In this document: one piece after another, positions 30,030 through 44,949 of the stretch
Layout of the letters: every line of letters begins with the position of its first letter
Numbering within the stretch: the first letter of the stretch is position 1
NCBI RefSeq assembly: GCF_030166655.1
Contig: NZ_CP126446.1
Span: 620,001-684,000 of the forward strand
From: Pontibacillus chungwhensis
GTDB lineage: Bacteria > Bacillota > Bacilli > Bacillales > BH030062
DNA: 64,000 bases
Direction: 5' to 3'
The notes under the pieces: generated by a model
Seen by the model: only the letters and a program-made list of their open reading frames with translations
Told to the model about the DNA's origin: nothing
The model's database searches: none
Program-made: the position numbers and the translations under genes

Positions 30030-30058
30030 TCATTTTTCCGAAACCTCGTACATAGACT
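30030..30058 (+). promoter_or_regulatory. SigE-like promoter of prkA
   Basis: TCATTTT (30030-30036), 14-bp spacer, CATAGACT (30051-30058). Against the B. subtilis SigE consensus (KMATAWT, 14-15 bp, CATACAHT) this matches 6 of 7 and 7 of 8 positions. prkA belongs to the SigE mother-cell regulon in B. subtilis. No SigA promoter is evident in the same stretch. Confidence 0.6.
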
Positions 30059-30103
30059 GTATTATTCAGTGCTTGCCTAACTTCAACAGGGGAGGTCTTT
30101 TGA

Positions 30104-30553
30104 GTGGATTTCTTAAAAAAGGTGCAAAGTTACAGGGAAGAAGAGGAGAACTTGAAGTGGGAAGGGACATTTGGTGAGTATTTAGACATGCTTCGTGAAC
30201 GTCCGTACCTGGCTCAGTCAGCTCACTCCCGTGTTTATAATATGATTAAACATGCGGGGATCGAAGAGCAAAATGGAAGGGTTCATTATAAGTTTTTTGA
30301 CGATCAGATCTTTGGATTAGAAGAAGCAATGGAGAAACTGGTGGAGGAATATTTCCACCCGGCAGCCAAGCGACTGGATGTTAAGAAACGGATTTTGTTA
30401 TTGATGGGACCAGTCAGCGGTGGTAAATCGACACTTGTTACGTTGTTAAAACGTGGTTTAGAGCGATTCTCTCATACAGATGAAGGGGCAGTTTACGCCA
30501 TTAAAGGTTGTCCGATGCATGAGGATGCATGCATTTCCTTAAACACCCATTAA
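30104..30553 (+). pseudogene. prkA: prkA, 5' part, interrupted by prophage insertion
   Basis: Codons 1-141 match the N-terminus of PrkA, an AAA+ protein (called a serine kinase, also described as Lon-like protease) active early in sporulation and about 631 residues in B. subtilis. GTG 30104 follows GGGGAGG with 8-bp spacing. Recognisable stretches include KWEGTFGEYLDMLRERP, LLLMGPVSGGKSTLVTLLKR (Walker A) and AIKGCPMHED. After HED the expected PLHLIPH is replaced by ACISLNTH and a stop, so identity ends at about 30526. The remaining roughly 490 codons should lie beyond the far prophage end. The frame is otherwise intact with no decay, suggesting the split is recent or reversible. Confidence 0.88.
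30511..30545. other. Probable attL junction of the prophage
   Basis: PrkA coding identity stops at 30524-30526 (GAT of HED). The junction area has short repeated words: GATGCATGAGGATGCATGCA at 30514-30533 contains GATGCAT twice and the palindrome ATGCAT. Serine integrases recombine at a 2-bp core within dissimilar flanks, so no long direct repeat is expected. The exact crossover cannot be fixed without attR. Confidence 0.6.
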
Positions 30554-30566
30554 AATAGAAAACGGA

Positions 30567-32021
30567 TTACCTGAATTGGTAATCCGTAATCTCAAGCACA
30601 GCTGGCTCAGCATTCTTGCCGGTTCGTGCTTTTTTTATGATATCTATGGTGACGGACTCGAAAATGGTTTGGATGGCAATTTTCTTGTCTTCAAATGACA
30701 TTTGAGGGTAGGTTTCCTTGATATTCTGTAGAACAAGCATTACATCTTCTTCGCTTGCTACTTCCGATACTTCTTCCTTTAGCATTTTCATTAGATCCTC
30801 CTCAGTGGATCGAGCATTCTCTAGTATATCTTTATAACGTTTCTTATCAATATCGCCCTCTAGATACATTTCTTCAGCGCGCTCACGTTTCAACTTAACC
30901 TTCTCAAGTTCATTCTCAATATGTTCTTTATCCACTTCTGGATCAGCATTAGAAGTCTCTTTCGATGGTTGGAAGTTATCAATGGATACTGTTAGTGCAT
31001 TGAAGAAGGTTTCTTCTAGCGTGTTTTCAGCAATAACAGGTTGATCACAAATACCAAACTTAAACCGTCCCTGGCATTTGTAGAATCTATGGACCGTGTT
31101 GTTTTTTCTTTTCTTACTACTACCCGTTAAGCTTTTACCGCATTTTCCACACTTTCCGATACCTGAGAATGGATAGGGGGTGTTTGCTTTAAAGGCCATT
31201 TTACTTCTGTTCTTCATAATTAAAGCTACCTCTTTAAAATCTTCCTCTTCAATAAGAGGTTCAAAGTCCTCTTGCTGGATAGGGGTAATAATATCTTCTC
31301 CAGTCAATTTCCCTTTAGCTAGACTTCGATGATTCCAACGAACTTGTCCAATGTAAATAGGATTGCGAAGCAAATAACGAACAGAGAAGTCACTCCAAAT
31401 CTCTCCCTTTTTCGTCTTGACTCCACGCTTGTTAAGTTGCTTAGCAATGTATTGAGAACCATGTGTGAGTGCTTTCTTAAAGATATATTTAACCCATTGA
31501 GCTTCATCATGATTTATTACAAGTTTACCTTCTATAATGTCATAACCATAGGGGGCAGGAGCTCCATTTCGATAGCCATTTTCACTACGGCTCATCATGT
31601 TTTCGAAAACACGTTCAGCTGTCTGCTCACGTTCCCATTGAGCCATAGCTGCAACCAGTGTAATAAATAAACGACCAGCAGCAGTAGTGGTGTCATAAAC
31701 CTCCGTCGCTGACTTAAACTTTACATCATGTTTCTCCATAAGTTTTAACAGCTTATGAAGGTCAGACACTGATCGGATGAATCTGTCCAAACGATAAACA
31801 AGCAGAACATCAAATTTCTCAGACTCGATGTCCTCAATCAACTGTTGCATTCCTGGACGTTTAAGGTCTTTAGCCGAGAAACCATCATCTACGTAGTCCT
31901 CAACACACGTCCACCCTTGAGAGGTGATGTAAGCATTAAGGCGCTCGTTCTGAGTTTCCAAACTGACACCTTTTTCAACTTGCATAATTGTTGAAACACG
32001 TCTGTATTTAGCTGCTCTCAT
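30567..32021 (-). CDS. Large serine recombinase (prophage integrase)
   Basis: 484 residues. The N-terminal resolvase domain (about 1-150) has the nucleophile Ser10 in YRRVS and the YRLDRFIRSVSDL catalytic block. The recombinase domain is about 155-260, the zinc-ribbon domain has CGKCGKSL and later C-x(9)-C (CQGRFKFGICDQ), and a long coiled coil spans about 365-440, as in SpoIVCA/SprA and phiC31-type integrases. The start is ATG 32021, 7 bp after GGAGGT; earlier in-frame GTG/ATG codons overlap the ribosome binding site. It ends 13 bp from the broken prkA frame, the normal place beside an att site. Confidence 0.95.
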   Translation of the reverse strand: MRAAKYRRVSTIMQVEKGVSLETQNERLNAYITSQGWTCVEDYVDDGFSAKDLKRPGMQQLIEDIESEKFDVLLVYRLDRFIRSVSDLHKLLKLMEKHDVKFKSATEVYDTTTAAGRLFITLVAAMAQWEREQTAERVFENMMSRSENGYRNGAPAPYGYDIIEGKLVINHDEAQWVKYIFKKALTHGSQYIAKQLNKRGVKTKKGEIWSDFSVRYLLRNPIYIGQVRWNHRSLAKGKLTGEDIITPIQQEDFEPLIEEEDFKEVALIMKNRSKMAFKANTPYPFSGIGKCGKCGKSLTGSSKKRKNNTVHRFYKCQGRFKFGICDQPVIAENTLEETFFNALTVSIDNFQPSKETSNADPEVDKEHIENELEKVKLKRERAEEMYLEGDIDKKRYKDILENARSTEEDLMKMLKEEVSEVASEEDVMLVLQNIKETYPQMSFEDKKIAIQTIFESVTIDIIKKARTGKNAEPAVLEITDYQFR

Positions 32022-32087
32022 GTTCATCACCTCCGTTAAATAATGTTACCTATATTATATAGAGCGTGAGCCTGTTAGTTCAACGAC

Positions 32088-32594
32088 TTATCCCAGGGAA
32101 CAAAAACCATTTCTCACAATTTCCTCCCATACCATCTTACCCAGGTATTGTTTTTCTAAATGTTGAAGTCTTTGGTTGGCAAAAGTATGTGTGACACCAA
32201 ATGTTTCAGCTATAAGTTCAACGGCTTCACAACGACGCTCTGGAAGATCTAATTTAAGTAACATGAAAGTAGGTACACAAAAGTGAAGAGCAAAATTCCT
32301 AGCTTGCCATTCTTGTTTCAGACGGTATGTGTTAGCCATAAAAAGCTGATTTCCCGCATGCCAAAGAACATGGCAGATTTCATGACCGAAGCTTTCCCAT
32401 TGTTCTTCAGGTGTATCATGAATTTGCAAATGAATGGAGTTTCCAGATCGAAAGGGTCCATGCTCTCCAATATTCAGATCTACTTTTAAAGAGGATGATA
32501 TATAACCTAGCTCCATATCAAACGGGCAATGGATCCCCATAGCTGTGTATAGTTCTTTGATTTGATCTTCTAACCTTGTGTATTCGTACTTCAA
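32088..32594 (-). CDS. ImmA/IrrE-family metallopeptidase
   Basis: A 168-residue predicted zinc protease. HEICH at residues 71-75 is the HExxH site, and the downstream EWQARNFALHF carries the family's third ligand region. In ICEBs1 ImmA cleaves the ImmR repressor to switch on the element. Here it lies between repressor and recombinase in the same orientation, so it is the likely anti-repressor. A candidate LexA-like motif lies in the 190-bp gap upstream. Confidence 0.88.
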   Translation of the reverse strand: MKYEYTRLEDQIKELYTAMGIHCPFDMELGYISSSLKVDLNIGEHGPFRSGNSIHLQIHDTPEEQWESFGHEICHVLWHAGNQLFMANTYRLKQEWQARNFALHFCVPTFMLLKLDLPERRCEAVELIAETFGVTHTFANQRLQHLEKQYLGKMVWEEIVRNGFCSLG

Positions 32595-32785
32595 TAAAGA
32601 ATCCTCCCACTTGTAACAAAACTATTTATGAACTGGAAAAGCCTTGTTATTTTATCAGGCTTTAGATAATTCTACTAAATAATTGAATTGCTATCCACTT
32701 CCAATTAGGAGAAAAAATAGAACAAATGTTCTTTTTTGGGTGAAAAATAAGACCAATAGGATTATAAGTTTATTTATAACCCTTA
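32595..32785 (-). promoter_or_regulatory. Repressor-immA gap with GAAC-N4-GTTC palindrome
   Basis: No gene. GAACAAATGTTC (32720-32731) matches the core of a Gram-positive LexA/SOS box. Because AAAAAA and TTTTTT flank it, the same bases form a terminator-like hairpin for the repressor transcript on the minus strand. The two readings cannot be separated here. Confidence 0.4.
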
Positions 32786-33181
32786 TTAGTCATCTTTTCT
32801 TTTCTTAGCTTTTTCTCGAACCCATTCGAAGTGATTTTTAATTTCTTCTATATCTTCACGCGTGAGGTCTTTCCATGAGTTAAGATCATAAAAGCTAAGA
32901 TCCATATCTTGCATGTTATTATCTATAAGGTATTGTTTGAGTTCCTCAAGGGGATCAAAGGCATCTTTCACCTCACTAGATTCTGCGTAGGATCTCCCCA
33001 GGATAAAGTCAGTACTAACATTATAGAAGTTAGCTATCTTATTTAGTGTTTCATAATCTGGATTTCTTTTTCCTAACTCGTAATGAGCGTAAGTTCCTCG
33101 ACTAATATTCAGTTTTTCAGCAAGCTCTCCTTGCGTAAGTTTTTCCCTCTGTCTCAAATATTTAAGCTTTTGACCAATCAT
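32786..33181 (-). CDS. XRE-family phage repressor (CI-like)
   Basis: 131 residues. The helix-turn-helix (LTQGELAEKLNISRGTYAHYELGKRNPD) occupies about residues 15-45; the remainder is an acidic-basic helical tail without a LexA-type peptidase domain, consistent with removal by ImmA rather than self-cleavage. ATG 33181 is chosen since AAAGGAAG lies 7 bp before it; the frame extends upstream into the operator region without a ribosome binding site. Divergent from the Cro-like gene across four operators. Confidence 0.88.
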   Translation of the reverse strand: MIGQKLKYLRQREKLTQGELAEKLNISRGTYAHYELGKRNPDYETLNKIANFYNVSTDFILGRSYAESSEVKDAFDPLEELKQYLIDNNMQDMDLSFYDLNSWKDLTREDIEEIKNHFEWVREKAKKRKDD

Positions 33182-33266
33182 CAAAGCACTTCCTTTAGTT
33201 AATATATTGATCATGTTTTGTTAAAAATGTATTTTTATATATTTTATAAACTATTTATATTATAAA

Positions 33267-33371
33267 GTAGCAATTTGCTACATGAAATAAATGTAGCAAA
33301 AAAGTACATGTTTGTGTTGACAGTTGCGTATTACTACATTATACTTTGGTTATACAGTCGCAAATCGCTGC
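33267..33371. promoter_or_regulatory. Four 15-bp operator-like sites between repressor and cro
   Basis: O1 GTAGCAATTTGCTAC (33267-33281, perfect palindrome), O2 GTAGCAAAAAAGTAC (33293-33307), O3 GTTGCGTATTACTAC (33323-33337), O4 GTCGCAAATCGCTGC (33357-33371). Centre spacings are 26, 30 and 34 bp. All four share the pattern GTNGC...CTAC-like ends. O1 sits over the leftward ATTATA (-10 on minus, 33264-33259), and O3 fills the spacer of the rightward promoter. Confidence 0.75.
33317..33345 (+). promoter_or_regulatory. Rightward early promoter (PR)
   Basis: TTGACA (33317-33322), 17 bp, TATACT (33340-33345), with operator O3 in the spacer and O4 downstream. Confidence 0.8.
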
Positions 33372-33387
33372 AAAAGGTGGTGAGTAA

Positions 33388-33627
33388 ATGAACCAACGAA
33401 TGTGGCTAAGTAAAATAAGAAAAAAGAAAGAATTAACGCAATTAGAGGTAGCAAAACAATCCAATATTGGGAGAGCATATTATACTCAAATTGAGAATGG
33501 AATCAGAAACCCTAGCGTTTCTGTAGCAAAAAAAATTGCCTCAACTCTAGACTTTGAATGGTCGATTTTTTTGAAGAACAATGTAGCGATTTGGAACAAA
33601 AAGGGCCGGGACAAGCCATTTAACTAA
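33388..33627 (+). CDS. XRE-family Cro-like regulator
   Basis: 79 residues, essentially one helix-turn-helix (LTQLEVAKQSNIGRAYYTQIENGIRNPS). First gene of the rightward transcript, with AAAGGTGGTGAGTAA before ATG 33388. It probably competes with the repressor for the four operators to favour lytic or excision genes. Confidence 0.82.
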   Translation: MNQRMWLSKIRKKKELTQLEVAKQSNIGRAYYTQIENGIRNPSVSVAKKIASTLDFEWSIFLKNNVAIWNKKGRDKPFN

Positions 33628-33699
33628 CTCGAACAGAAGTAACTTTTTATGGATAGTCTGAGGGGGCTTGCTCATAAACATGTGTAAAGGAGTGATTTC

Positions 33700-33852
33700 A
33701 TGAAAATCGTTTTAAACGAAGAGCAAACGCAAAAGTTTTTCCAAGCGCTTTACCCTTCAGCTGTTCGGATAGCGGCCGAAAAGCGCAAACGAGAACGTGA
33801 GCAAGAAGAACAGGAATCCACTTCAAATACCTCTGAGAAATCAGCATCATGA
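33700..33852 (+). CDS. Small phage protein, basic-acidic helix
   Basis: 50 residues starting at ATG 33700 after AAAGGAGTGATTTC. MKIVLNEEQTQKFFQALYPS leads into a highly charged helix (EKRKREREQEEQE) and a serine-rich end. Unrecognised; clean ribosome binding site and position in the early operon support it. Confidence 0.6.
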   Translation: MKIVLNEEQTQKFFQALYPSAVRIAAEKRKREREQEEQESTSNTSEKSAS

Positions 33853-33916
33853 ATCTGTTTAATGCCATTATATCGAATCACAAGATTTGTGAGGGTAAAA
33901 AAAGGAGGTAATTCTG

Positions 33917-34435
33917 GTGCCAATTGGTAAAGCACTTCAGAATGCTAGGAAACAATGTGGGGATAGTCAAACGAATTTGAGTATGGAAGCGAATTGTTCA
34001 AGAGAGACGATTTCTGCTTACGAGAACGGAAGAGCAAAAGTTCCATCTGATATCTTCCAACATGCTTTAGAGAAGTATCAAGATTTAGATATGGTGATGG
34101 AAGCTGCCGCCGATTACTTCGGTCCTTATTTCTTTCCTCAATTAAATGGAGATAACGTCGATCATCATCCTTCTTCTGTATTAATGAAGTCAGAGGAAGA
34201 ATTAGAAGAAGCGTTAGTTGCAGTGAAGAAAGCAAAGAAAATCATGCTCAAGCCAGGTTCATCCATATCAGACGTAGAACGCCGGGAGCTTGAAGAAATC
34301 GCTCAGGAGTATATTGAATCTATGACTTGCGGTTGGGTGTTCTTACGAGCTCTGGAACCATACGGATTACATTATACCAAACTGTTAGAAAATCATAACC
34401 GAGAGATGATCGCAAAAGGTTATGTGGTGAGGTAG
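33917..34435 (+). CDS. Helix-turn-helix (XRE-like) early phage regulator
   Basis: 172 residues from GTG 33917 after AAAGGAGGTAATTCT. The N-terminal 60 residues (KALQNARKQCGDSQTNLSME, SRETISAYENGRAKVP) are an XRE-type DNA-binding domain; the remainder is helical and acidic with no recognised fold. Probably an early gene regulator. Confidence 0.72.
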   Translation: MPIGKALQNARKQCGDSQTNLSMEANCSRETISAYENGRAKVPSDIFQHALEKYQDLDMVMEAAADYFGPYFFPQLNGDNVDHHPSSVLMKSEEELEEALVAVKKAKKIMLKPGSSISDVERRELEEIAQEYIESMTCGWVFLRALEPYGLHYTKLLENHNREMIAKGYVVR

Positions 34436-34465
34436 CTCAATAAAATTCAGAAAAGGAGCATTGTT

Positions 34466-34720
34466 ATGACAGAGGAAGAAAATCACAAAATCATTTCTGC
34501 TATCGCAAATCAAATCGAAGCTTCAGATGAAATTGCCCGAGATGTGAGGGATTCAATTCTCTTTGGAAGTCTTGATTGGATTGTAGAGAGAGCGTTAAAT
34601 ACAGGAGAAAAAATTGACCCAAAGACGATTATAGATGCTATGGAGCATGCGGTTGAATTTGGGTTAAAGGAGAAAGCGAGGAAAGAATCTTGCAATACGT
34701 CCAATACGCAAGCCGGTTGA
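34466..34720 (+). CDS. Hypothetical early phage protein
   Basis: 84 residues, mostly helical and acidic, after AAAAGGAGCATTGTT. No known motif. Its stop overlaps an in-frame ATG of the next small frame (TGATG). Confidence 0.55.
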   Translation: MTEEENHKIISAIANQIEASDEIARDVRDSILFGSLDWIVERALNTGEKIDPKTIIDAMEHAVEFGLKEKARKESCNTSNTQAG

Positions 34721-34848
34721 TGAAGGCGGGAGAGGCTAATGCATTAATTAAACAAGCTTTAGCCAATCGAAACCTAGTTGATCAAGCCGACCACTTTGTT
34801 AAATCACTAAATAAAACACAAAAAAAGGCAGCCAGCAAAGCCTGCTGA
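34690..34848 (+). CDS. Small early phage protein (52 or 42 residues)
   Basis: Either TTG 34690 after GAGGAAAG gives 52 residues, or ATG 34720 (overlapping the previous stop) gives 42. The sequence MKAGEANALIKQALANRNLV continues with a basic C-terminus (KKAASKAC). Its last codons coincide with the 34821-34853 hairpin. Unknown function. Confidence 0.45.
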   Translation: MQYVQYASRLMKAGEANALIKQALANRNLVDQADHFVKSLNKTQKKAASKAC

Positions 34849-34853
34849 CTACC
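34821..34853 (-). terminator. Minus-strand intrinsic terminator
   Basis: On the minus strand GGTAGTCAGC and GCTGGCTGCC form a 10-bp stem (two G-U) followed by TTTTTT. It would end a transcript coming from 34860-35070. Confidence 0.5.
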
Positions 34854-34892
34854 AACAACGTCTAGATTCATAATATCACTAAATGTATTAAA

Positions 34893-35045
34893 GGGCAAGT
34901 AGTCTTGCCCTCATGAATAGGGGCCCTTCCTTTCCTCCCAGATACGGAAGGTTGAAATGCCGAATTGCTCCTGTTCATGAGGGTGTGACTAAGCACCTTC
35001 GAGCATAAGAAAAGACCGCACTGGTATGCGGTCCCTCGAAAAAAC
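34893..35045. ncRNA. Structured non-coding region, candidate small RNA or leader
   Basis: A 225-bp gap without a gene holds nested inverted repeats: GGGCAAG/CTTGCCC (34893-34910), CCCTCATGAA (34908-34917) with TTCATGAGGG (34974-34983), CCTTCC/GGAAGG (34925-34951), GGTG/CACC (34982-34997), and GACCGCA/TGCGGTC (35014-35033) within TTCGAG/CTCGAA. Read on the minus strand the last hairpin is followed by TCTTTTCTT, like a terminator. Strand and function are undetermined. Confidence 0.45.
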
Positions 35046-35075
35046 TTTTATTAATCATATTATACCACAAAAGGG

Positions 35076-35276
35076 GTGAGATTACTTCTGGACAAGCGTG
35101 AATTCCCTATTCCGCACTGTTATTTGTGGATGACCAAAGATGCCCCTAACAGACGCGATCTGTTCGTTAGCTACGTTATAGGTTACTTGAGAAGCGTAGA
35201 ACCTGAATGGCGGCTAGCTGAGATCAAGGGCATGAAAGCTGTTTGTGTAAAAAGAATAAAGGAGGGTGGAGATTAA
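35076..35276 (+). CDS. Hypothetical early phage protein
   Basis: 66 residues. GTG 35076 is given as start, but AAGGGG lies only a few bases before it, so a later non-ATG start is possible. KREFPIPHCYLWMTKDAP and a short RSVEPEWRLAEIKG segment look like a small globular fold. The next gene starts right after its stop. Confidence 0.5.
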   Translation: MRLLLDKREFPIPHCYLWMTKDAPNRRDLFVSYVIGYLRSVEPEWRLAEIKGMKAVCVKRIKEGGD

Positions 35277-36152
35277 ATGGCTAGACCATACAAAGAAGGT
35301 ATTGACTACTTCCCACTCGATGTAGATATGGACCAGGACGACAAGGTAGCCATTATCGAAGCTAAACATGGGATAGAAGGTTTTGCGGTTTTAATGAAGC
35401 TCTTAATGAAAGTGTACAAGGAAGGTTACTACTACGAATGGAATGAACGCGAGCAATTACTATTCTCTAGAAGAGTTAATGTCAACATTAACTCAGTAAA
35501 AGAGATTGTCGCTGATTGCATCGAGGAAAATTTGTTCAATAAAGACGTGTACGCACAATATGCAGTCCTTACCAGTAAAGGGGTTCAGAGCCGATACTTA
35601 GAGGCTGTAAAACGTAGAAAAGAGGTTCGTTTTAAAGAGGAATACTTCCTTTTACAGGACTTTGAACATATTATTGGCAACTCTAAGACAGCAATAATAC
35701 TAACTAAACCCAACGGAAAGGAAGTTAATGTTAACAATAACTCAAAAAATGATAACAGTAATCCACAAAGTAAAGTAAAGGAAAGTAGAGTAAAGGAAAG
35801 TAAAGAAGAGGAGAGTAAAGCAGAAGAAGAAGAAGAAGATAACGGCCGAAACTCTCAGAATCCGTTCACATTCTTCGAGAATTGCTTCGGTCCTCTGAAC
35901 CATGTAACGACTGAAAAGATAGATCAATGGATTGACGATCTTGGAGAAGAGCTAGTTATAAAGGCAATGGATAAGGCTGCATTAGCAAACAAAACCTTCC
36001 CATATGCCAACTCTATTTTAAATAGCTGGTACCACGGCAATGTGAGGACATTGGCAGATGTTGAAGCTGAGGAGAAGCAATTTGCTAGAAAGAGAGAAGG
36101 TCCATCCTCCAATGTAACGCCTATGCCGAGTCGTTACCAAAATGCATTCTAG
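35277..36152 (+). CDS. Phage replisome organiser, DUF4373 plus DnaD-like domain
   Basis: A 291-residue protein expected to bind the phage origin and recruit the helicase loader encoded next. The N-terminal domain (about 1-125, MARPYKEGIDYFPLDVDM) is the DUF4373/Lin1244-type winged helix, and the C-terminal 195-270 part (NPFTFFENCFGPL, PYANSILNSWYHGN) is DnaD/DnaB_2-like. A Lys/Glu linker of repeated KVKES-type units joins them (35770-35850, low-complexity DNA). Phage origins often lie inside such genes, and this AGTAAAG repeat block is a candidate. Confidence 0.82.
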   Translation: MARPYKEGIDYFPLDVDMDQDDKVAIIEAKHGIEGFAVLMKLLMKVYKEGYYYEWNEREQLLFSRRVNVNINSVKEIVADCIEENLFNKDVYAQYAVLTSKGVQSRYLEAVKRRKEVRFKEEYFLLQDFEHIIGNSKTAIILTKPNGKEVNVNNNSKNDNSNPQSKVKESRVKESKEEESKAEEEEEDNGRNSQNPFTFFENCFGPLNHVTTEKIDQWIDDLGEELVIKAMDKAALANKTFPYANSILNSWYHGNVRTLADVEAEEKQFARKREGPSSNVTPMPSRYQNAF

Positions 36153-36163
36153 GAGGGTGAATG

Positions 36164-36988
36164 ATGAACGGAACTGCAGCCGGATTAAAACGAAACATGG
36201 AGCGCTTAAATATCGGACGGATTCAGCAGATCGGAACAAGAACATGTGAGTCATGCCAGGCTCAAGTACCCGTTATGGAACGAACAGATCGAGATGGAGT
36301 TGTTCATGAAGAATCGCTCTGCTTGGCTTGCGATACTCAAAAGCTTAAATCTAAAGCTCCTAAGGCTGAGGATATCAAAATTGAAAAAATAAAGCGCTTT
36401 GGCGAAAAGTATCAAAAGGTGCCAAGGAAATTGATCGGGAAGACAGTTGCCAAATATGTACCAGAAAATGATTCGGAAAAAGCGATGAAGGAAGCAATTG
36501 TTGATTATGTTCGTAATTTTGGAAAGACAGATCATCATTCGCTTGTCCTGAAAGGGCCAATGGGTCTAGGTAAAAGCCATTTAGCTTACGCTGCTTCCTC
36601 CGAAATCAGAAGACGCGGTTATAGTGTTATGTATATTGCGGCAGATGACTTTTTATCACTCATAAAGTCCACTTTCGATAAAAAATCTGACCTCACGGAG
36701 AGTAAGATTTTCGAAATGATTGAGCAACTGGACCTTCTTGTTTTCGATGAAATAGGGGCTGAGTACTTGAACAAAAAAGATGAGTTTGAGTCCTGGGCTT
36801 CTGAGAAAATCCTTAAAGTTACGGACCTAAGGGAAGACAAGCCCACCATCTATACGACTAACTACTCTGCACCGGAAATGGTGAAAAAGTACGGATCAAT
36901 ACAGGGCGGTCGTATTACATCAAGAATGGTAGCTGGAGCTAAACGGATAATGGTAGAAGGGCGAGATCGTCGCGAAGAATTATTTTAG
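36164..36988 (+). CDS. DnaC/DnaI-like helicase loader ATPase
   Basis: 274 residues. An N-terminal zinc-binding segment (CESCQ...CLACD) is followed by an AAA+ domain with Walker A GPMGLGKSHLAY, Walker B LLVFDEIGAEY, sensor 1 TTN, and an arginine-finger region GGRITSRM. It loads the host replicative helicase at the phage origin. AGGAGG favours ATG 36164 over ATG 36161. Confidence 0.9.
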   Translation: MNGTAAGLKRNMERLNIGRIQQIGTRTCESCQAQVPVMERTDRDGVVHEESLCLACDTQKLKSKAPKAEDIKIEKIKRFGEKYQKVPRKLIGKTVAKYVPENDSEKAMKEAIVDYVRNFGKTDHHSLVLKGPMGLGKSHLAYAASSEIRRRGYSVMYIAADDFLSLIKSTFDKKSDLTESKIFEMIEQLDLLVFDEIGAEYLNKKDEFESWASEKILKVTDLREDKPTIYTTNYSAPEMVKKYGSIQGGRITSRMVAGAKRIMVEGRDRREELF

Positions 36989-37000
36989 GGAGGTAAGGTT

Positions 37001-37180
37001 ATGTGCACAATTTGCGGAGGAGATTACGTGGTTCATACACCAGTAGAACACGGCTACTTTTTTGAACCATGTCCACAATGCGGGGAGCAACCTCAGGAGG
37101 AGCATGAAAAGGAGTTTGCTGAACTTTACAAGCAACTGGACGAGGCAGAGGCCAGGAATAAGGAGAAGCATTCGGCATGA
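37001..37180 (+). CDS. Small zinc-ribbon phage protein
   Basis: 59 residues. MCTICGGDY and PCPQCGEQ provide two CxxC pairs for one zinc, followed by a charged helix. GGGAGGTAAGGTT precedes ATG 37001. Its stop overlaps the next ATG (ATGA). Confidence 0.68.
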   Translation: MCTICGGDYVVHTPVEHGYFFEPCPQCGEQPQEEHEKEFAELYKQLDEAEARNKEKHSA

Positions 37181-37428
37181 GCAAGGATCGGCTTTACATC
37201 GCTCTTACTAAATGTAATTTGGATTGGAAAGAATCTGAGGTTAAGAGATTTCGAGAGTATTGGGATCAGGGCTACAGTTTTATGGCGATAGCCAAGATGT
37301 TGAAGCGATCACAAAAAGATGTGCTGGCATTGACACTGGATCAAACAACAGAAGGTCTCGTTTCTTGGAGACACGGAGGTGCTATAGGTGACGAATGGGG
37401 AAGAAAACCAGTTAAGAAAAGCAGTTAA
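37177..37428 (+). CDS. Small phage protein with possible helix-turn-helix
   Basis: 83 residues. EVKRFREYWDQGYSFMAIAK followed by MLKRSQKDVLAL resembles a sigma-region-4-type or homeodomain-like helix-turn-helix, so a small DNA-binding role is possible. It overlaps the preceding gene by 4 bp and the next frame by 41 bp. Confidence 0.6.
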   Translation: MSKDRLYIALTKCNLDWKESEVKRFREYWDQGYSFMAIAKMLKRSQKDVLALTLDQTTEGLVSWRHGGAIGDEWGRKPVKKSS

Positions 37429-37588
37429 TGCTTCAAGACGGAGACAATTTTTAATTGGTGTGCTACTTGATATGGATGTAGAAACCTCAGCGGCAGGTAA
37501 GTCTATTAAAGATTTATCGCTCTACGAATTAGAAGATCTGCACGCTAGTAAGAAATATCGCTTTGCTAATAGCGGGGTGAATTCGTGA
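37388..37588 (+). CDS. Fbp-like small protein
   Basis: 66 residues from GTG 37388. NQLRKAVNASRRRQFLIGVL and the later GKSIKDLSLYELEDLH segment resemble the Fur-regulated basic protein family (FbpA-type), which in Bacillus serves iron-sparing regulation; phage copies have no known role. The overlap with the preceding gene and the weak ribosome binding site lower confidence. Confidence 0.5.
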   Translation: MTNGEENQLRKAVNASRRRQFLIGVLLDMDVETSAAGKSIKDLSLYELEDLHASKKYRFANSGVNS

Positions 37589-37746
37589 AGATGCATAGGG
37601 GAGAAGTTACCACTTATATGCTCAGTCACCAGGAGTTAGAGAAAAAGCGAATCGGAGCAAAATGTGATCTAGAAGATCGAAAGCAAGCAAAGAGCGCAAA
37701 TTATTCATTAGTCAGGAACAAAAGGACTGGAAGAAAAGATGGGTAA
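37585..37746 (+). CDS. Small basic phage protein
   Basis: 53 residues from GTG 37585, overlapping the previous stop, with GGGGTGAATTC upstream. Rich in Lys and Arg (ELEKKRIGAKCDLEDRKQAK). Unknown function. Confidence 0.5.
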   Translation: MKMHRGEVTTYMLSHQELEKKRIGAKCDLEDRKQAKSANYSLVRNKRTGRKDG

Positions 37747-37870
37747 ACGGAAACGTAAGTGGTACTTGTTGTCCAGGCGTGAAAACTACCAGATGGTGCA
37801 TAGGTACGAACCATTGCACAAGTACGAACTCCTAAGTCGCAGGAAGAACGGATGGAGGGTAATAGAATGA
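37739..37870 (+). CDS. Very basic 43-residue phage protein
   Basis: MGKRKRKWYLLSRRENYQMV and on to a basic WRVIE end. It overlaps the previous gene by 8 bp and the next by 4 bp, the tight packing usual in phage early operons. Possibly nucleic-acid binding; not recognised. Confidence 0.5.
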   Translation: MGKRKRKWYLLSRRENYQMVHRYEPLHKYELLSRRKNGWRVIE

Positions 37871-38211
37871 GTCAGATCACATTAGAAGATCTAATCTACC
37901 AATTCGATGAATCTAAAATAAATGTACAACGAAGCTACTTTGATCAGTTGAAATACTTTGAGGTTAAGGCCTATATTCCCGAAGATGTTAAAGGACCCTT
38001 GGAGCTAGGCATGCGTCCTGAAGGGGAAGAGTTTCAAAGAAAACTAGATTTATGGTGTAAGTATGCTGTAGCTATTTGGGACTTTAATGATCTTACTTGG
38101 CTGGAAGCTACCGATCAGTTAAAGAAGTTTAGGGACTCTGATCAGCCTGTTGGTTTGAAGATTTGGTTACATTCAGATTTTCGTCCAGAAAGTGTAACTG
38201 AGTATTTGTAA
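37867..38211 (+). CDS. Hypothetical phage protein
   Basis: 114 residues. ATG 37867 has GGAGGG 7 bp upstream; the in-frame ATG at 37852 overlaps that ribosome binding site. Mixed alpha/beta, with a Trp-rich centre (DLWCKYAVAIWDFNDLTWLE). No family recognised. Confidence 0.6.
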   Translation: MSQITLEDLIYQFDESKINVQRSYFDQLKYFEVKAYIPEDVKGPLELGMRPEGEEFQRKLDLWCKYAVAIWDFNDLTWLEATDQLKKFRDSDQPVGLKIWLHSDFRPESVTEYL

Positions 38212-38258
38212 GCAACAGAGTAAGCATTGTGTGTAATTCAAAAAAGGAGGAATTATTA

Positions 38259-38999
38259 ATGAATTTAGAAAGCAGCGTTAAAGATGCTATTGCTAAGAAA
38301 TTATCTGACGGTACGGTTGAAAAGCTAATCGAGGAGCAAGTGGAAGAAGGAATTAAGAAGGCACTAAAAGATTTATTCGGACTCTTCGGTGATGCGAACA
38401 AAGTAATTGAACAGCAACTTAAATCAGTTATGGTTCCTTATCTTGAAAAATACGATTACAGCCAGTATGTAACAAAACTTGATGCAGTTTTAGTGGATGT
38501 ACTGAAAAGCTCTTCACTGGATAATAAGCAATTGCTTGATAACTTTAAAAACCTTATGAGTCCAGAGACCGAAAAAGTCACAAAGATCACGGAACTCTTT
38601 GAGCAATGGAAAGAGTACGTAGCACATAACGTTGATACAGATGATTTGGAAGTTGATCTCGATGATGAGCCTAGTTATGAACCTGTAGCTGTTTCAGTAC
38701 AAGTCGAATTTATGGAAGATCGCTCTTGGAGTTCTTTTCAAAACGGGATGATTACTTTTGAGTGTGAGCATGATGAAACATTGAATATTCAATTCCCTGT
38801 ACATCGTTGGGAGAAATTCGATAAAGAGGAATGGACGATTGACTATAAAACACCTCATGATCTGAGTTCTCTAAAACGCCTTGATGAGTTTGAAGTTCTA
38901 CTAATGAAAATGAATCAGAATAACACCAAGATCATTGTCGATGAAGAAATGATACATGACGATGTTTACCCAGAAGAAGAGCCAGAGGCGTCATTCTAA
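38259..38999 (+). CDS. Hypothetical phage protein, acidic
   Basis: 246 residues from ATG 38259 after AAAAAGGAGGAATTATT. The N-terminal half is helical (SVKDAIAKKLSDGTVEKLIE), the middle is very acidic, and the C-terminal part is beta-rich (VEFMEDRSWSSFQNGMITFE) and ends in a Glu/Asp tail. Two-domain appearance; no known motif. Possibly a structural or host-interaction protein of the early operon. Confidence 0.6.
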   Translation: MNLESSVKDAIAKKLSDGTVEKLIEEQVEEGIKKALKDLFGLFGDANKVIEQQLKSVMVPYLEKYDYSQYVTKLDAVLVDVLKSSSLDNKQLLDNFKNLMSPETEKVTKITELFEQWKEYVAHNVDTDDLEVDLDDEPSYEPVAVSVQVEFMEDRSWSSFQNGMITFECEHDETLNIQFPVHRWEKFDKEEWTIDYKTPHDLSSLKRLDEFEVLLMKMNQNNTKIIVDEEMIHDDVYPEEEPEASF

Positions 39000-39005
39000 T
39001 AGATT

Positions 39006-39242
39006 ATGGCGAGTGGGTGCATAGTTGGTGATTGCTACGTGTGTGGTTGGCTTGTATATGAGGATGAACAGACTTGGTACAACGATAGTCTTAAACACTC
39101 TACATGCAAATCTAAGCCACAACTAAAGCAAGAGAATGAAAGGCTTAAGGAAGAGTTAGCTGAGTACAGAAAGTGGTTTGGTCAAATGAAAATGACCGGA
39201 TGGGAAGAGGGAGCAAAGAAGCTCCAGAAAGAAACAAAGTAG
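39006..39242 (+). CDS. Small Cys-rich phage protein with coiled-coil tail
   Basis: 78 residues. CIVGDCYVCGW and a later His-Cys (KHSTCKS) could bind zinc; residues 40-78 form a charged coiled coil. ATG 39006 is 6 bp after the previous stop with a poor ribosome binding site, suggesting coupling. Confidence 0.55.
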   Translation: MASGCIVGDCYVCGWLVYEDEQTWYNDSLKHSTCKSKPQLKQENERLKEELAEYRKWFGQMKMTGWEEGAKKLQKETK

Positions 39243-39273
39243 CGATTGTGTGTAATAGATAAGAAGCTGAGCG

Positions 39274-39381
39274 TTATAAGAGGCTCAGCATCTGGACAAT
39301 AAACTCGATAACTAAGATCAACCATTCGTGTTTAACCACCTTGATTTCCAAATCGGCATTAAAAGATAGTGAAAATTTCAT
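39274..39381 (-). CDS. 35-residue membrane peptide on the opposite strand
   Basis: MKFSLSFNADLEIKVVKHEW then LILVIEFIVQMLSLL, a single C-terminal hydrophobic helix. AAGGGGAGATGTTTAC precedes ATG on the minus strand, and GCTGAGC/GCTCAGC followed by TTCTTAT forms a terminator-like hairpin overlapping its stop. It is the only minus-strand gene inside the rightward early block. I cannot identify a promoter with confidence. Function unknown; it may be a toxin-like or superinfection peptide. Confidence 0.5.
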   Translation of the reverse strand: MKFSLSFNADLEIKVVKHEWLILVIEFIVQMLSLL

Positions 39382-39512
39382 GTAAACATCTCCCCTTAAA
39401 GTCTAACTTGTCGATTTTCAGAGAGAGTCGTAACACACTTTTAAAAGTAAATTTGATTTTAGGCGATTGGAATTATTCATAGCAAAGCTAAAAGGAAGGA
39501 CGGACCAGACAC

Positions 39513-39839
39513 ATGAAGTACTACAAATTAAAAGGAGAGATATTGATGAAAGAGCTTAAAGTATCTGATGAAAAAGGATTGTAGGACGTTAAGGTATTCC
39601 AAGTTTGTGAAAGTGATGCTGTAGCTGCTTATTCTCTTGATGAAGCTATTGAATTTTACCAAAAACAAACTGGACTTGAAGATGATGAATTACATGGATA
39701 TGAGGATATGGAAGTTGTTCCTCTTGATTACAAGGTACGTGAAAGTGAGGGCAGCGAGGAGCTTATAACGGTTCGTGAAGTGATTGAAATGTATTGGGAA
39801 GGTAAGCCATTCATTGCACTTTCTACTGGGGGATATTAA
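39513..39839 (+). pseudogene. Phage early protein gene broken by an in-frame TAG
   Basis: ATG 39513 (or ATG 39546 after AAAAGGAGAGATATTG) opens a frame that meets TAG at 39582-39584, then continues open for another 84 codons to TAA 39837. The downstream part DVKVFQVCESDAVAAYSLDE... ending VIEMYWEGKPFIALSTGGY looks like a normal small phage protein. Otherwise the frame is undamaged, so either a recent nonsense mutation or suppressor/readthrough expression explains it. Confidence 0.7.
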
Positions 39840-39878
39840 GACGGATCACGAAGATTATGCGAAACAAGGAGGGTCAGC

Positions 39879-40067
39879 ATGAGTGAGCCAATTATAGCTA
39901 AGTGGCAAGATCGTTGGGGTGAGGAACACGTACTGTTGGAAGGTAAAGGTGAGGACATTTTATATGCAATACCCGAAAGAAAAGATGAAGAGGGAAATTC
40001 TCATGTTGAAATGTTGTCCAAAAAGGCTCTTCTGGAGTTTGTGGGTAAGTTGAACGAAACAAAATGA
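39879..40067 (+). CDS. Hypothetical small phage protein
   Basis: 62 residues after AAACAAGGAGGGTCAGC. MSEPIIAKWQDRWGEEHVLL suggests a small beta-sheet protein. No family recognised. Its stop overlaps the upstream frame of the dUTPase gene. Confidence 0.58.
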   Translation: MSEPIIAKWQDRWGEEHVLLEGKGEDILYAIPERKDEEGNSHVEMLSKKALLEFVGKLNETK

Positions 40068-40099
40068 TAGTTCAGTTGAATTGGGAGAGGGGTAAACGA

Positions 40100-40630
40100 A
40101 TGAATTTAGATAAGTTAATGGAGGTCCAGGGCGGTTTAGATTCTCATGTTGTTCTTGAAAAAGGATTGGAAGAGCAGGACTTGTTTAACCAAAAAGTCCT
40201 CGCTCTTCAAGTAGAAATTGCAGAATTAGCTAATGAGACTCGCTGCTTTAAATTTTGGTCGAGCAAAGAACCGAGCGAACCTGAAATACAACTAGAAGAA
40301 TACGTGGATGGGATTCATTTCTTTTTAAGCTTAGCAATTGATTTGAAAATGGAGCCAAGTAGCTTAATGGTTTGGGATGATTTTACGGAAGCAAACTTAA
40401 CGGAAACGTTGTTAAGCGTACTAAGTGAAATTTCAAGCCTGTATGTTTTAAAAGACGTTAATTTGCCAGCTTCTATTTTCTTAGAAGACCTACAAGAAAT
40501 CCTCCGGGAGGCCTTTCAGGTTTATGTAGGTATCGCTAGTAAGTTTTTAGGATTCTCCTGGGAAGAAGTAGAGGAAGCGTACTATAAGAAGAACAACATC
40601 AATCACCAGCGACAGCTTAACGGCTACTGA
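40100..40630 (+). CDS. Dimeric dUTP diphosphatase (dUTPase_2 family)
   Basis: A 176-residue all-alpha nucleotide pyrophosphatase that converts dUTP to dUMP and keeps uracil out of phage DNA. The metal-binding motifs LQVEIAELANETRCFKFW and EEYVDGIHFFLSL match the MazG-related dimeric dUTPases of Gram-positive phages. ATG 40100 after GAGAGGGGTAAACG is chosen over ATG 40064, which overlaps the previous stop. In Staphylococcus phages such dUTPases also derepress pathogenicity islands, but that is not implied here. Confidence 0.88.
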   Translation: MNLDKLMEVQGGLDSHVVLEKGLEEQDLFNQKVLALQVEIAELANETRCFKFWSSKEPSEPEIQLEEYVDGIHFFLSLAIDLKMEPSSLMVWDDFTEANLTETLLSVLSEISSLYVLKDVNLPASIFLEDLQEILREAFQVYVGIASKFLGFSWEEVEEAYYKKNNINHQRQLNGY

Positions 40631-40646
40631 TCGAGAGGTGGAACTC

Positions 40647-41414
40647 ATGAATGAACGTTACGTTGATGGCGAGTGGGTAACGGCAGAAGACTTAATTCGG
40701 AAGCATCGTAAGTTTATTTGGAAACAGGTAAAAAAGTACATTGCTAGAGGAAAAGGAGCAGGCTTTACACCAGATGATTTATATAGCTGCGCATGTATTG
40801 GAGTTATGAAAGCATTTGATAGTTTCGATGCAGAAAAAGGGTACAAGTTTCTCACTTATGCTGGCACAAAGATGATGGGGCAAATAGACGCGGAGATCAG
40901 AAAAAATTCCGGGCTCATCCATTTGCCGGCTCTACAAGATCAGCTTGTTCGTAAAATTAAAGCCGAGGATATGGTAGAAAAAAATGCTGAGGAAACCGCA
41001 AAACATTTCGAAGTGAAATTGGAACACGCTGAATTGGCCAAACAGTATTTGATGCCAAGAATTTCGACTGAAACGCCTATCAATGAAGAAGGGGACACTA
41101 CGTTAGGGGATTTCCTTGTAGGCGATAGTTTCGACGAATCTGTGGTAGTCGTAAATGACTTCCTTGAAACACTAACTGATTTAGAAAAAGACGTTTTGCT
41201 CATGAAGATGGAGTCACGAACAGTCTATGAAATTGGCGATAAATATAATAAGTCACGAGGATGGCCGGAGATAGTAATCAATAGGGTGAAAAAGAAATAC
41301 GTGAAGTATTATAAGGAAGTTAATGAGGTGGCTCAAGGAAATCTTGCCAAGGCAAAGCAGCTCCTAAGTGAAACAGACATAAGAGGTCAAGAGGTCGCTT
41401 TGGAAGTACATTGA
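40647..41414 (+). CDS. Sigma-70-family RNA polymerase sigma factor of the prophage
   Basis: 255 residues. Region 2 is clear (FTPDDLYSCACIGVMKAFDS, then GYKFLTYAGTKMMGQIDAEI), with the RKNSG turn; region 4 (LTDLEKDVLLMKMESRTVYE and the following SRGWPEI helix) is divergent. The layout resembles the SigF/SigG/SigB group. GAGAGGTGG favours ATG 40647 over GTG 40638. It follows dUTPase by 16 bp. It could redirect polymerase to late phage promoters, or respond to host development. Confidence 0.82.
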   Translation: MNERYVDGEWVTAEDLIRKHRKFIWKQVKKYIARGKGAGFTPDDLYSCACIGVMKAFDSFDAEKGYKFLTYAGTKMMGQIDAEIRKNSGLIHLPALQDQLVRKIKAEDMVEKNAEETAKHFEVKLEHAELAKQYLMPRISTETPINEEGDTTLGDFLVGDSFDESVVVVNDFLETLTDLEKDVLLMKMESRTVYEIGDKYNKSRGWPEIVINRVKKKYVKYYKEVNEVAQGNLAKAKQLLSETDIRGQEVALEVH

Positions 41415-41444
41415 GCATTTTAAGCAGATCGGAGGGGAGAGAAC

Positions 41445-41552
41445 ATGAATAAATGCGTTGAGTGTAAGAAAAAAGATGCAACTCATTGGTCTTGTCATCT
41501 TTGCGAGAAATGCTTTGAAGAAATCCTCGCTGATAAAGTAAAAAACAGTTAA
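41445..41552 (+). CDS. 35-residue zinc-binding phage peptide
   Basis: MNKCVECKKKDATHWSCHLC followed by EKCFEE gives C-x2-C and C-x2-C-x2-C patterns. GGAGGGGAGAGAAC precedes ATG 41445. Small zinc fingers of this sort recur in this operon. Confidence 0.6.
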   Translation: MNKCVECKKKDATHWSCHLCEKCFEEILADKVKNS

Positions 41553-41564
41553 GGGGGCATAATT

Positions 41565-41852
41565 TTGGTTAATGAAGAGCTATTTAATGCAATAAAAGAA
41601 TTTGGGAAGAAAATTGCTAATGTATTTAAAGCCGTCTGCTTAAAGTTTTCAGAACACCTCAGGTCAAAAGTTAAATATATTGCTAAGTTACACACGAAAA
41701 CTAAGGAAAAAAGTCACGAACAGATTGAGGAATTGAGAGTTTGGAAACGGAATATTACACTGCACAATCAATTGGCCCTTGTACAGCTGAAACAATATGA
41801 CTATAAGTATAAGCCAACTAGACTAACGAGCAGAGGGAAGACCCGTCAGTAA
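41565..41852 (+). CDS. Hypothetical basic phage protein
   Basis: 95 residues from TTG 41565 after AAGGGGGCATAATTT. Helical and strongly basic towards the C-terminus (KYKPTRLTSRGKTRQ). Unrecognised; possibly nucleic-acid binding. Confidence 0.58.
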   Translation: MVNEELFNAIKEFGKKIANVFKAVCLKFSEHLRSKVKYIAKLHTKTKEKSHEQIEELRVWKRNITLHNQLALVQLKQYDYKYKPTRLTSRGKTRQ

Positions 41853-41870
41853 TGGAAGGAAGCGTTCAAG

Positions 41871-41975
41871 ATGATCAAATATTTTTGTAGTTGCTGCGGG
41901 AAAGAATGGTGGTCACTGAAGATTGAGGTCATCCAGTGTTGTGGTTTTTATGTCGTACATGAAGAATTTGAGTAA
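41871..41975 (+). CDS. 34-residue Cys-rich phage peptide
   Basis: MIKYFCSCCGKEWWSLKIEV then IQCCGFYVVHEEFE; four to five cysteines in CxCC and CC pairs form a likely zinc site. ATG 41871 lies after GGAAGGAAGCGTTCAAG. Immediately followed by a reversed terminator-like hairpin. Confidence 0.55.
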   Translation: MIKYFCSCCGKEWWSLKIEVIQCCGFYVVHEEFE

Positions 41976-42003
41976 ATAAAAAAAGCCAGGGCGGACCCTG
42001 ACT
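41976..42003 (-). terminator. Minus-strand terminator-like hairpin before xtrA
   Basis: On the minus strand AGTCAGGG-TCCG-CCCTGGCT is followed by TTTTTTT. The same arrangement (A-run, GC hairpin, then A/T-rich gap and a ribosome binding site on the plus strand) occurs at 34821-34853 and about 35010-35033. Confidence 0.5.
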
Positions 42004-42054
42004 CTTAGCATAGTGCTTGCCAACTACTATTCTATCATATCGGGGGTCTGCTTT

Positions 42055-42243
42055 GTGGGACAAATTAAAATGGAAACAACAATAGATCTTTCTGAAAACG
42101 CAATGTATGTGGTAAGAGATGGTCAGATTACAAAAGTAAGCGCGAAGCCGTTTGGCTCAGATGAAGTTGTTTGGAAGGACGGAAAAGTGGTTGATGTGGT
42201 TAGAACTCAACGACAGCGTTTGAATGGGCAGGAGGTTATATAA
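42055..42243 (+). CDS. XtrA-like phage protein
   Basis: 62 residues. GTG 42055 follows GGGGGTCTGCTTT, and ATG 42070 is a shorter alternative; the frame upstream lacks a ribosome binding site. METTIDLSENAMYVVRDGQI and the following VSAKPFGSDEVVW segment resemble XtrA of PBSX, a small protein just before the late regulator in Bacillus prophages. Role unknown. Confidence 0.6.
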   Translation: MGQIKMETTIDLSENAMYVVRDGQITKVSAKPFGSDEVVWKDGKVVDVVRTQRQRLNGQEVI

Positions 42244-42444
42244 TGGACCAGCCAAATGGAAAATATTCAAAAATTGAAATGGAAATGGCCTTAGATCAAT
42301 TCATTAATTCTTTGGATATATTAATTGCAAAATCTGAGCACGATGCAAAGCTATAAAAAAAAGAAATATTAAGATTTGGTGTTAGCAGGATTTACAGAAG
42401 TACAGGCTATGGAAATTATTAAAGCAAGACCTTTGGTTGAATAA
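42243..42444 (+). pseudogene. Small phage gene apparently broken by a frame change
   Basis: ATG 42243 (overlapping the xtrA stop; AGGAGGTTATATA upstream) gives 37 residues, MDQPNGKYSKIEMEMALDQF to SEHDAKL, then TAA 42354. A second frame 17 bp on reads DLVLAGFTEVQAMEIIKARP and ends at 42444. The GFT-x-x-QA-x-E-x-IK-x-RP tail is a familiar ending of a phage small-protein family, so the two pieces probably formed one gene of about 65 codons, damaged around the A-rich stretch at 42354-42372. Confidence 0.5.
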
Positions 42445-42465
42445 ATATGTCTGAGCGAAGAACGC

Positions 42466-42511
42466 AGGACACAGATCAAGAGCACTAGGCTCTTGATCTG
42501 TGTCCTTTTTT
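42466..42511 (+). terminator. Strong intrinsic terminator within the prophage
   Basis: AGGACACAGATCAAGAGC (42466-42483) and GCTCTTGATCTGTGTCCT (42489-42506) are a perfect 18-bp stem, followed by TTTTT. It separates the early operon from the ArpU/late-control genes. Confidence 0.93.
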
Positions 42512-42535
42512 AAATATTTGGAAGGGAGTAACTCT

Positions 42536-42724
42536 ATGTCTGATCAATTAAGGGACCAGTTAAAAAAGTATAAAAAGAAACATGGCATTAAATCTCCTTC
42601 ACCTAAGAAAAAATCAAAAAAGGACAACAGTGAATCCTATTCTAGGAGTGAGATTGAAAGTCTCATGGGTATGAATCGTCCTACTTATAAACGTGGACCT
42701 GGTGGAGCTTATAAGCAAAAATAA
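42536..42724 (+). CDS. Small basic phage protein
   Basis: 62 residues from ATG 42536 after GGAAGGGAGTAACTCT. Lys-rich (KKYKKKHGIKSPSPKKKSKK) with a Gly/Tyr-rich end (YKRGPGGAYKQK). First gene after the strong terminator. Unrecognised. Confidence 0.6.
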   Translation: MSDQLRDQLKKYKKKHGIKSPSPKKKSKKDNSESYSRSEIESLMGMNRPTYKRGPGGAYKQK

Positions 42725-42739
42725 AGGAGTGTGGTTGTA

Positions 42740-43731: not shown

Positions 43732-43794
43732 AAAAGAGGTTAAGTGGGTAGTATTCAGGAATTAGATAAAGAATAAAAAAGTTTGGGTGGTTAT

Positions 43795-44673: not shown

Positions 44674-44679
44674 ATATAA

Positions 44680-44707
44680 ATACGCTTATCAGAAGCGTAT
44701 TTTTTAT
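44680..44707 (+). terminator. Terminator of the orphan membrane gene
   Basis: AATACGCTT and AAGCGTATT pair around ATCAG, followed by TTTTT. Confidence 0.88.
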
Positions 44708-44949
44708 TGGACAATAAATGTCTGCCTTTGAATGATACTTAAATATAGAGTTGTGTAATTCAATAATAAATGTGCAAATAAAACATATTTATCAAGGCTT
44801 TCAGCCTTTGGGTGAATGATTCAGTATATAAGATATGGGTAATTAGATAATATTGGCAGACTGTTGGCAGAATAAGGGCAGGTTGTTCGTGTTTTAATGC
44901 GTTATATTAATAGTATAGAAAATTAAATCAAACAGACCGATAACTTGGG
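44708..44949. other. A/T-rich gap before the packaging genes
   Basis: No gene is seen in about 240 bp. TATAAGATAT and TTATATTAATAGTATAG stretches could include the late promoter, but I cannot choose a clear -35/-10 pair. Confidence 0.35.

Follow-up and report, generated by a model that had tools for sequence, protein, structure and literature searches.

Whether a phage lodged in the middle of the sporulation gene prkA has destroyed this gene, or has only suspended it until the mother cell needs it, is the question raised by this locus. The window, i.e. the whole 64,000-nucleotide stretch analysed (C1:620,001-684,000 of the host genome G000, which comprises 4.17 Mb in 2 contigs), contains on its forward strand a prkA frame with a GTG start (30104..30553) that agrees with intact PrkA for 141 codons (30104-30526), after which 8 foreign codons derived from the element lead to a stop ending at 30553. 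This frame corresponds to positions 2-127 of the 358 positions of the PF08298 (AAA_PrkA) profile, with an E-value of 1.6e-32, and its 141 residues are 98.6% identical to those of an intact PrkA from a congener. The frame comparison and the profile match bear out the initial annotation, which had read prkA as normal for 141 codons and then broken at the edge of a prophage, as do the 13 bp found between position 30553 and the recombinase frame (30567-32030), the very distance it had given.

The remainder of the gene, to be sought further to the right according to the same annotation, was located by a PF08298 and PF06798 search of the genome at C1:696,336-697,799, on the same strand and 45.8 kb downstream of the 5' part. 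It covers positions 121-357 of PF08298 and 1-255 of the 255 positions of PF06798, host sequence resuming from C1:696,348. A second complete prkA, which had been named as a result that would speak against this reading, is absent from the host genome in this search with the two profiles; a third PF08298 match, of 27.9 bits, lies within a 798-aa frame elsewhere, and a like match is present in all eight relatives. The two halves of the host gene are both open and in register, making up 631 codons together. Besides, prkA is unsplit in the eight relatives from the same GTDB family (seven of the same genus and one of another genus). Since none of the seven congeners carries a split prkA, the insertion may be recent, and the intactness of the halves need not mean selection.

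The attR that was likewise expected at the far end of the prophage is present there (GATGCACGGGGACCCGCTG) and has in common with attL (30514..30548, forward strand; GATGCATGAGGATGCATGC) the trinucleotide GGA, located at 30523-30525 in attL. Within it, the GA at 30524-30525, inferred to be the crossover dinucleotide, constitutes the first two bases of codon 141, referred to below as site A. The uninterrupted site of the relatives reads ATGCATGA(G/A)GA(C/T)CC in 8 of 8, coding MHEDPLHL(I/V)P, and their unsplit prkA reads KGCPMHEDPLHL(I/V)P across the insertion site. With a crossover placed in silico in GGA, the joined host halves encode exactly the protein of the relatives, in frame. The phage site attP rebuilt from the two junctions is symmetric about GA at 18 of 26 paired positions, compared with at most 13 for 14 other centres tried across the junction, and a symmetry of 18 or more is reached at 1 of 45,700 prophage positions; attB is without symmetry (6/26). 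The attP sites rebuilt in the same way from two other genomes split at site A (G062 and G068) have the same GA centre, again with 18/26, as does the real attP of the free phage Likha. A crossover in the common GATGCA was considered and rejected, its product MHGDPLHL being unlike that of the eight relatives and the attP symmetry being absent. Excision at GA would thus rebuild an in-frame prkA.

Between these sites extends a prophage of 45,824 bp core to core, whose left 33.5 kb fall within the window (30524..64000, forward strand), with attR at C1:696,348 and the prkA 3' part beyond. Next to attL, on the reverse strand, the 487-aa integrase of the element (30567..32030) is a large serine recombinase (LSR) with Resolvase (2.5e-38), Recombinase (6.7e-18) and Zn_ribbon_recom (1.8e-12) domains, and its Ser13, in the motif RRVST, is presumably the catalytic serine. 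Upstream of it, TTGAAC-N18-TATAAT (32054..32083, reverse strand) is a sigma-A-like promoter by consensus match. A lysogeny module follows, with a metallopeptidase that we take to be ImmA-like (32088..32594, reverse strand; phrog_87 metallo-protease, 7.4e-20), a putative CI-like helix-turn-helix repressor recognised by reading of the sequence (32786..33214, reverse strand), which has a match among the ORFs of the site-A element in G068 (5.6e-18), and a putative Cro-like regulator recognised in the same way (33388..33627, forward strand). Further along the forward strand are found a terminase large subunit (45705..47492; phrog_15, 3.5e-253), a portal protein (47780..49303; phrog_21, 1.2e-124), a head maturation protease (49296..50417; phrog_94, 1.6e-84), a major head protein (50816..51841; phrog_29, 4.4e-77), the sheath of a contractile tail (53878..55317; phrog_23, 4.5e-84), a tail tape measure protein (56351..58738; phrog_1272, 1.5e-74) and a baseplate wedge subunit (61177..62289; phrog_6, 1.7e-75). 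Overall, the PHROG scan of 10 prophage proteins assigned eight to terminase, portal, protease, capsid, sheath, tape measure, baseplate and endolysin, the other two being an FtsK/SpoIIIE-like protein near attR and the metalloprotease beside the LSR. The Resolvase, Recombinase and zinc ribbon integrase beside attL, together with genes for head, tail, packaging and lysis, give the element the appearance of a complete temperate phage with a contractile tail. No directionality factor with a mother-cell promoter was found in it; a 256-aa protein (38229-38999) was discarded as a candidate, only G068 sharing it among the compared loci and its homologues occurring in eight phage records of Bacillus and Ruminococcus. 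Two prophage ORFs (window 43189-43731 and L005:6260-7069) resemble tyrosine recombinases on reading of their sequence.

In order to place this insertion in a wider frame, prkA was surveyed with PF08298 in two overlapping draws, of 397 genomes of the order (378 matched at an E-value of 1e-15) and of 398 genomes of the class (262 matched), the follow-up being limited to genomes with a weak best match, 10 and 9 respectively. The gene is split in register in 16 genomes, the host included. The order draw contributes at least 8 of its 378 matched genomes and the class draw at least 9 of its 262, with G000 common to both; these counts are lower bounds, since the follow-up did not extend to eight members of one family that have one weak match each (E 1e-67 to 1e-79). 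The split lies at site A in G000, G062 and G068, and at a second position, site B (SADE|LIVAHTNE, codon 287), in 13 genomes (G102, G111, G197, G227, G292, G495, G496, G529, G543, G562, G621, G625 and G676). In 16 of 16, neither prkA part is interrupted and the two share one frame, the one stop counted for G000 being the codon that precedes its start. An LSR is present in all 16 as well, either between the prkA parts or, for G292 and G621, on the 5' contig, these two being split across two contigs, with the element covered in part and not seen as continuous; LSR identity was checked with Pfam for the window LSR, the others being named by similarity. Three genomes do not enter this count: G715, in which a 3' part and an LSR but no 5' part were found, G137, on account of a possible frameshift, and G064, which has no start. 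In terms of the distance between profile matches, the site-B elements measure about 2.2 kb (G496), 3.0 kb (G543), 3.9 kb (G562), 4.0 kb (G102), 6.2 kb (G676) and about 43 kb (G227), and the five of about 2-6 kb contain no phage genes by eye, six of their proteins having been scanned with Pfam. The G496 element (L099:1483-3623), of about 2.2 kb, holds an SprA-like LSR and a small, possibly SprB-like ORF. In that of G676 (L108:1524-7308), Pfam identifies a GerA/GerAC/spore-permease operon, i.e. a germinant receptor, beside the LSR.

Starting from LSR similarity, and so independently of prkA, further site-A insertions came to light in a Desulfoscipio geothermicus MAG, a Bacillota MAG, Paenibacillus alvei DSM 29 and three IMG/VR contigs. 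Six of the nine loci picked at a similarity of 50% or more adjoin prkA residues up to 141-144; as for the other three, L067 and L071 end at the LSR and L070 has an attP-like site instead. Twelve LSR matches were obtained in the order draw (E up to 1e-90), of which the three at 54% identity or more, the window's included, are all in prkA, and the nine at 46% or less belong to genomes whose single prkA match is full-length. More distant LSR relatives adjoin an asparagine synthase gene by Pfam (L123:2933-4228, G187) or type II secretion ATPase genes that are comGA-like by eye (L130:2948-3670, G328, and L131:2988-3707, G035, with Pfam T2SSE for G035), which might indicate other host genes as attachment sites. 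Three loci show less regular arrangements. G045 was rejected as a split, its prkA being full-length with a run of N inside and accompanied by a diverged partial copy, 93.6-96% identical; this copy starts at site A, 3 kb after the full-length gene (L059:804-7353), and is possibly the relic of a site-A insertion. At L063 (P. alvei DSM 29), the LSR of the site-A insertion is not one open frame, through decay or sequencing error, and at L109 (G715) the prkA 3' part from site A has an LSR of another kind close by, no 5' part being found.

The initial annotation had assigned the recombinase to the class that excises skin and SPβ, which holds in that its domains are those of a large serine recombinase, but not in terms of closeness to SprA, the LSR of SPβ. 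In a tree of 38 LSRs, the site-B proteins group together (support 97/98), a grouping partly due to selection since they were collected through sitting in prkA, while the site-A proteins, those past the first three having been gathered by LSR similarity, form a separate group with three relatives that have no assigned site (92/91); L063, for which no LSR in a single open frame could be found, is absent from the trees, and warnings concern a long branch (G715) and an odd composition in three site-B rows. After addition of SprA and three of its relatives, SprA is placed within the site-B LSRs, next to those of G227 and G529 (94/97, at a fork that is not starred), whereas the window LSR and three other site-A LSRs are parted from it by a 100/100 branch. 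In the same line, a tblastn search with the site-B LSR of G496 gave SPβ-type phages as best phage matches, with 38.7-40.6% identity. Mother-cell promoter patterns were matched in 6 of 20 regions upstream of LSRs, a count to which no chance expectation is attached.

Besides an SprA-like LSR, 9 of the 13 site-B elements encode a member of a family of small proteins of 55-99 aa, located beside attR in G111, G625, G495, G227 and G292, next to the LSR in G102, next to attL in G496 and away from these places in G529 and G197; no member was detected in G543, G562, G676 or the covered part of G621. In SPβ, SprB lies at the attachment site. Searched against 3,465 sequences, an iterated profile of the family has SprB of SPβL7 as first non-member (E 0.006), with Goe12 SprB at E 2 and the SprB proteins of SPβ and SPβL3 absent among the matches listed, and a profile-profile comparison with SprB gives P 0.00012 and a probability score of 55.6. 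The reverse search with an SprB profile yielded nothing significant, its best match (E 0.25) being an unrelated ORF, with the G197 (0.92) and G496 (2.5) members behind it; PHROGs gave a best E of 0.0042 for the nine small proteins. Nor did mother-cell promoters upstream of these genes stand out from shuffled sequences, 146 of 500 shuffles being as low for CATACAMT, 47 of 500 for CATANNNTA and 468 of 500 for a two-box sigma-K pattern. With moderate to low confidence, the small proteins are likely SprB relatives, a reading strengthened by the SprA-like LSRs that accompany them. In the available site-A sequence, which for several loci is that of one end, no SprB-like protein was detected better than E 0.25 with the SprB profile or E 0.9 with the family profile.

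Free phages add to the picture of site A. The LSRs of the Paenibacillus larvae phages Likha and phiERICV are 53.9% identical to the window LSR, and the attP of Likha has the symmetry and the dinucleotide of the inferred attP of the window phage, although host and phage are otherwise different. The integration site of these phages is not stated in the consulted parts of PMC11860570 and PMC6070908, the former calling lysogeny of P. larvae phages an open question. An IMG/VR contig (L066) carries an LSR identical to that of Likha, adjoining prkA residues 1-143, and its attL arm is the right arm of the Likha attP, so that such phages should integrate in prkA. No prkA DNA was found in the phage records.

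What, then, would the loss of prkA mean for the host? Upstream of the gene, CATTTTT (30031-30037) and, 13 bp further, CATAGACT (30051-30058) together form, on the forward strand (30031..30058), what we take to be a sigma-E-like promoter by likeness to the sigma-E consensus. The second box is present in the nine genomes of the GTDB family and the first in eight of them, G002 having CATTATT, while the other DNA upstream of prkA is mostly variable, the ribosome-binding region apart. Such a conserved promoter agrees with the initial description of prkA as a mother-cell sporulation gene, and an intact sigK-type gene is present in the host (373 bits against a cut-off of 298.65). According to PMC4415436, prkA of B. 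subtilis is sigma-E dependent, and its deletion makes sporulation later and lower with growth like that of the wild type, PrkA not being essential for sporulation and an earlier deletion being cited as without phenotype. In view of its sigma-E-type promoter and of its dispensability for growth in B. subtilis, the phage should cost vegetative cells little. Nevertheless, PrkA of another Bacillus is described as mattering also for osmotic stress (PMC13001217), so that growing cells might pay a price for losing it.

As regards selection, a gapless comparison of split prkA with the nearest available intact gene gives, where dS is unsaturated (9 of 16 5' parts and 10 of 16 3' parts), dN/dS values of 0.004-0.121, like those of intact pairs; the 5' part of G062 shows a dN of 0.413 with saturated dS, perhaps due to an indel misaligned by the gapless method. 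The low ratios fit a working prkA and cannot be dated to after the insertion. Compared with G001 and G004, the host 3' part (L005:13350-14823) shows a dS of 1.8-2.5 versus 0.5-0.7 for the 5' part (30104-30526), with few amino-acid changes, which suggests recombination or a different history of the two parts.

Like skin and SPβ, the window element lies inside the coding sequence of a sporulation gene of which both parts are kept, with a recombinase near the 5' part, a common att core and an in-frame joining in silico. The genes spoVR and prkA are functionally linked. In the passages of PMC4191935 consulted, skin in sigK (with SpoIVCA), vfbin in spoVFB and vrin in spoVR are likewise prophage-like elements with their own recombinase in mother-cell sporulation genes, but the genes are other ones and the window element looks like a complete phage. 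Closer still is SPβ in spsM of B. subtilis, a temperate phage which also splits a mother-cell sporulation gene, with an LSR at one end and in-frame rejoining (same passages); the site-B prkA elements share SprA-like LSRs with it and, in the nine above, have a protein possibly like its directionality factor SprB, whereas its target is spsM and the window LSR belongs to a distant group. Gene-intervening elements are also described, in the parts consulted, in gerE (gin, PMC5595907) and yabG (yin, PMC10747680); gin shows that non-phage elements can intervene, as several site-B elements appear to, although it measures 28.6 kb with three serine recombinase genes against about 2.2 kb and one LSR for the smallest prkA element. 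The sporulation genes thus named as targets are six (sigK, spsM, spoVFB, spoVR, gerE and yabG; PMC4191935, PMC5595907, PMC10747680), and the supposition that prkA had not been described as one is upheld, no such description being found in open-licence papers, judged by abstracts or passages. Relative to the literature searched, what is new is the target prkA, the fact that it recurs at two codons, and the existence of small elements of SprA type, and on sequence grounds prkA is a new, recurrent target of the known skin/SPβ kind of sporulation gene-intervening element.

The sequence itself shows that prkA is divided, where the attachment sites lie, that the joined product is in frame, which phage and LSR genes are present, that the promoter is conserved and that insertions by LSRs of one group recur at the same codon. 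From this we infer that the phage excises, at what stage it does so, that this is confined to the mother cell and that the phage has a directionality factor, and consider it probable that the window phage is a developmentally excised intervening element of prkA that rejoins the gene in the mother cell. A temperate tailed phage would use codon 141 as its bacterial attachment site, where a single crossover at GA, carried out by the LSR, would have split prkA without damaging either half or shifting the frame. The reverse crossover at this dinucleotide would make the reading frame whole again. During sporulation, a directionality factor would enable the LSR to release the phage from the mother-cell chromosome and PrkA to be restored there, while the spore chromosome would keep the prophage, as in SPβ/spsM. 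The mechanism, site-specific lysogeny by a serine integrase, would be ordinary and the place unusual, and by precedent it should be developmentally reversed. In SPβ, sprA is active in growing cells, the timing being set by the small sprB (PMC4191935), so that the sigma-A-like match upstream of the window LSR would fit a separate, timing-setting directionality factor.

The same promoter match can be read in favour of ordinary lysogeny, in which prkA is a convenient conserved attB and a lysogen without PrkA sporulates poorly, the gene being restored only upon phage induction; since sprA is also growth-expressed, we count the match as neutral for developmental excision. Ordinary lysogeny would equally account for the phage genes with their lysogeny module, for the sporadic distribution, with 0/7 congeners split, and for the related integrases of free phages. 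It is nevertheless rather unlikely in our judgement, given that 16 of the sampled genomes have prkA interrupted in frame, at two codons and by two LSR groups, that five elements of about 2-6 kb are devoid of phage genes by eye (six proteins Pfam-scanned), and that the site-B LSRs group with SprA, whose SPβ system is sporulation-controlled (PMC4191935). That the element is degraded and stuck, prkA being permanently lost in a host on its way to losing sporulation, is very improbable in view of the intact LSR frame with Ser13 and all three domains, the presence of attL and attR with a symmetric inferred attP, the intact sigK, and two open prkA parts with very low dN/dS. As to an assembly artefact joining a phage to prkA, no point speaks in its favour and it deserves next to no credence, both junctions lying inside one 4.14-Mb contig with a common GGA core and the same kind of junction recurring in other assemblies.

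As a tentative and possible extension, prkA may be a sporulation recombination hub, in which two LSR lineages would repeatedly colonise two codons across Bacillota, with elements ranging from complete phages to an SprA-like recombinase and SprB-like factor within about 2.2 kb. Such self-excising switches would add a DNA-level step between sigma-E and PrkA, the recombination system of SPβ would have arisen among prkA-resident elements, and some of these would carry spore-line cargo, such as the germinant-receptor operon of G676, discarded by the mother cell and kept by the spore. The fact that prkA is hit at two codons by two recombinase groups suggests that sporulation genes are often interrupted in this way, and at places that are not arbitrary. 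The small site-B elements are natural minimal candidates for a recombinase-plus-factor element, prkA is the predicted attachment site of cultured P. larvae phages, and the prkA elements may yield new LSR/att pairs.
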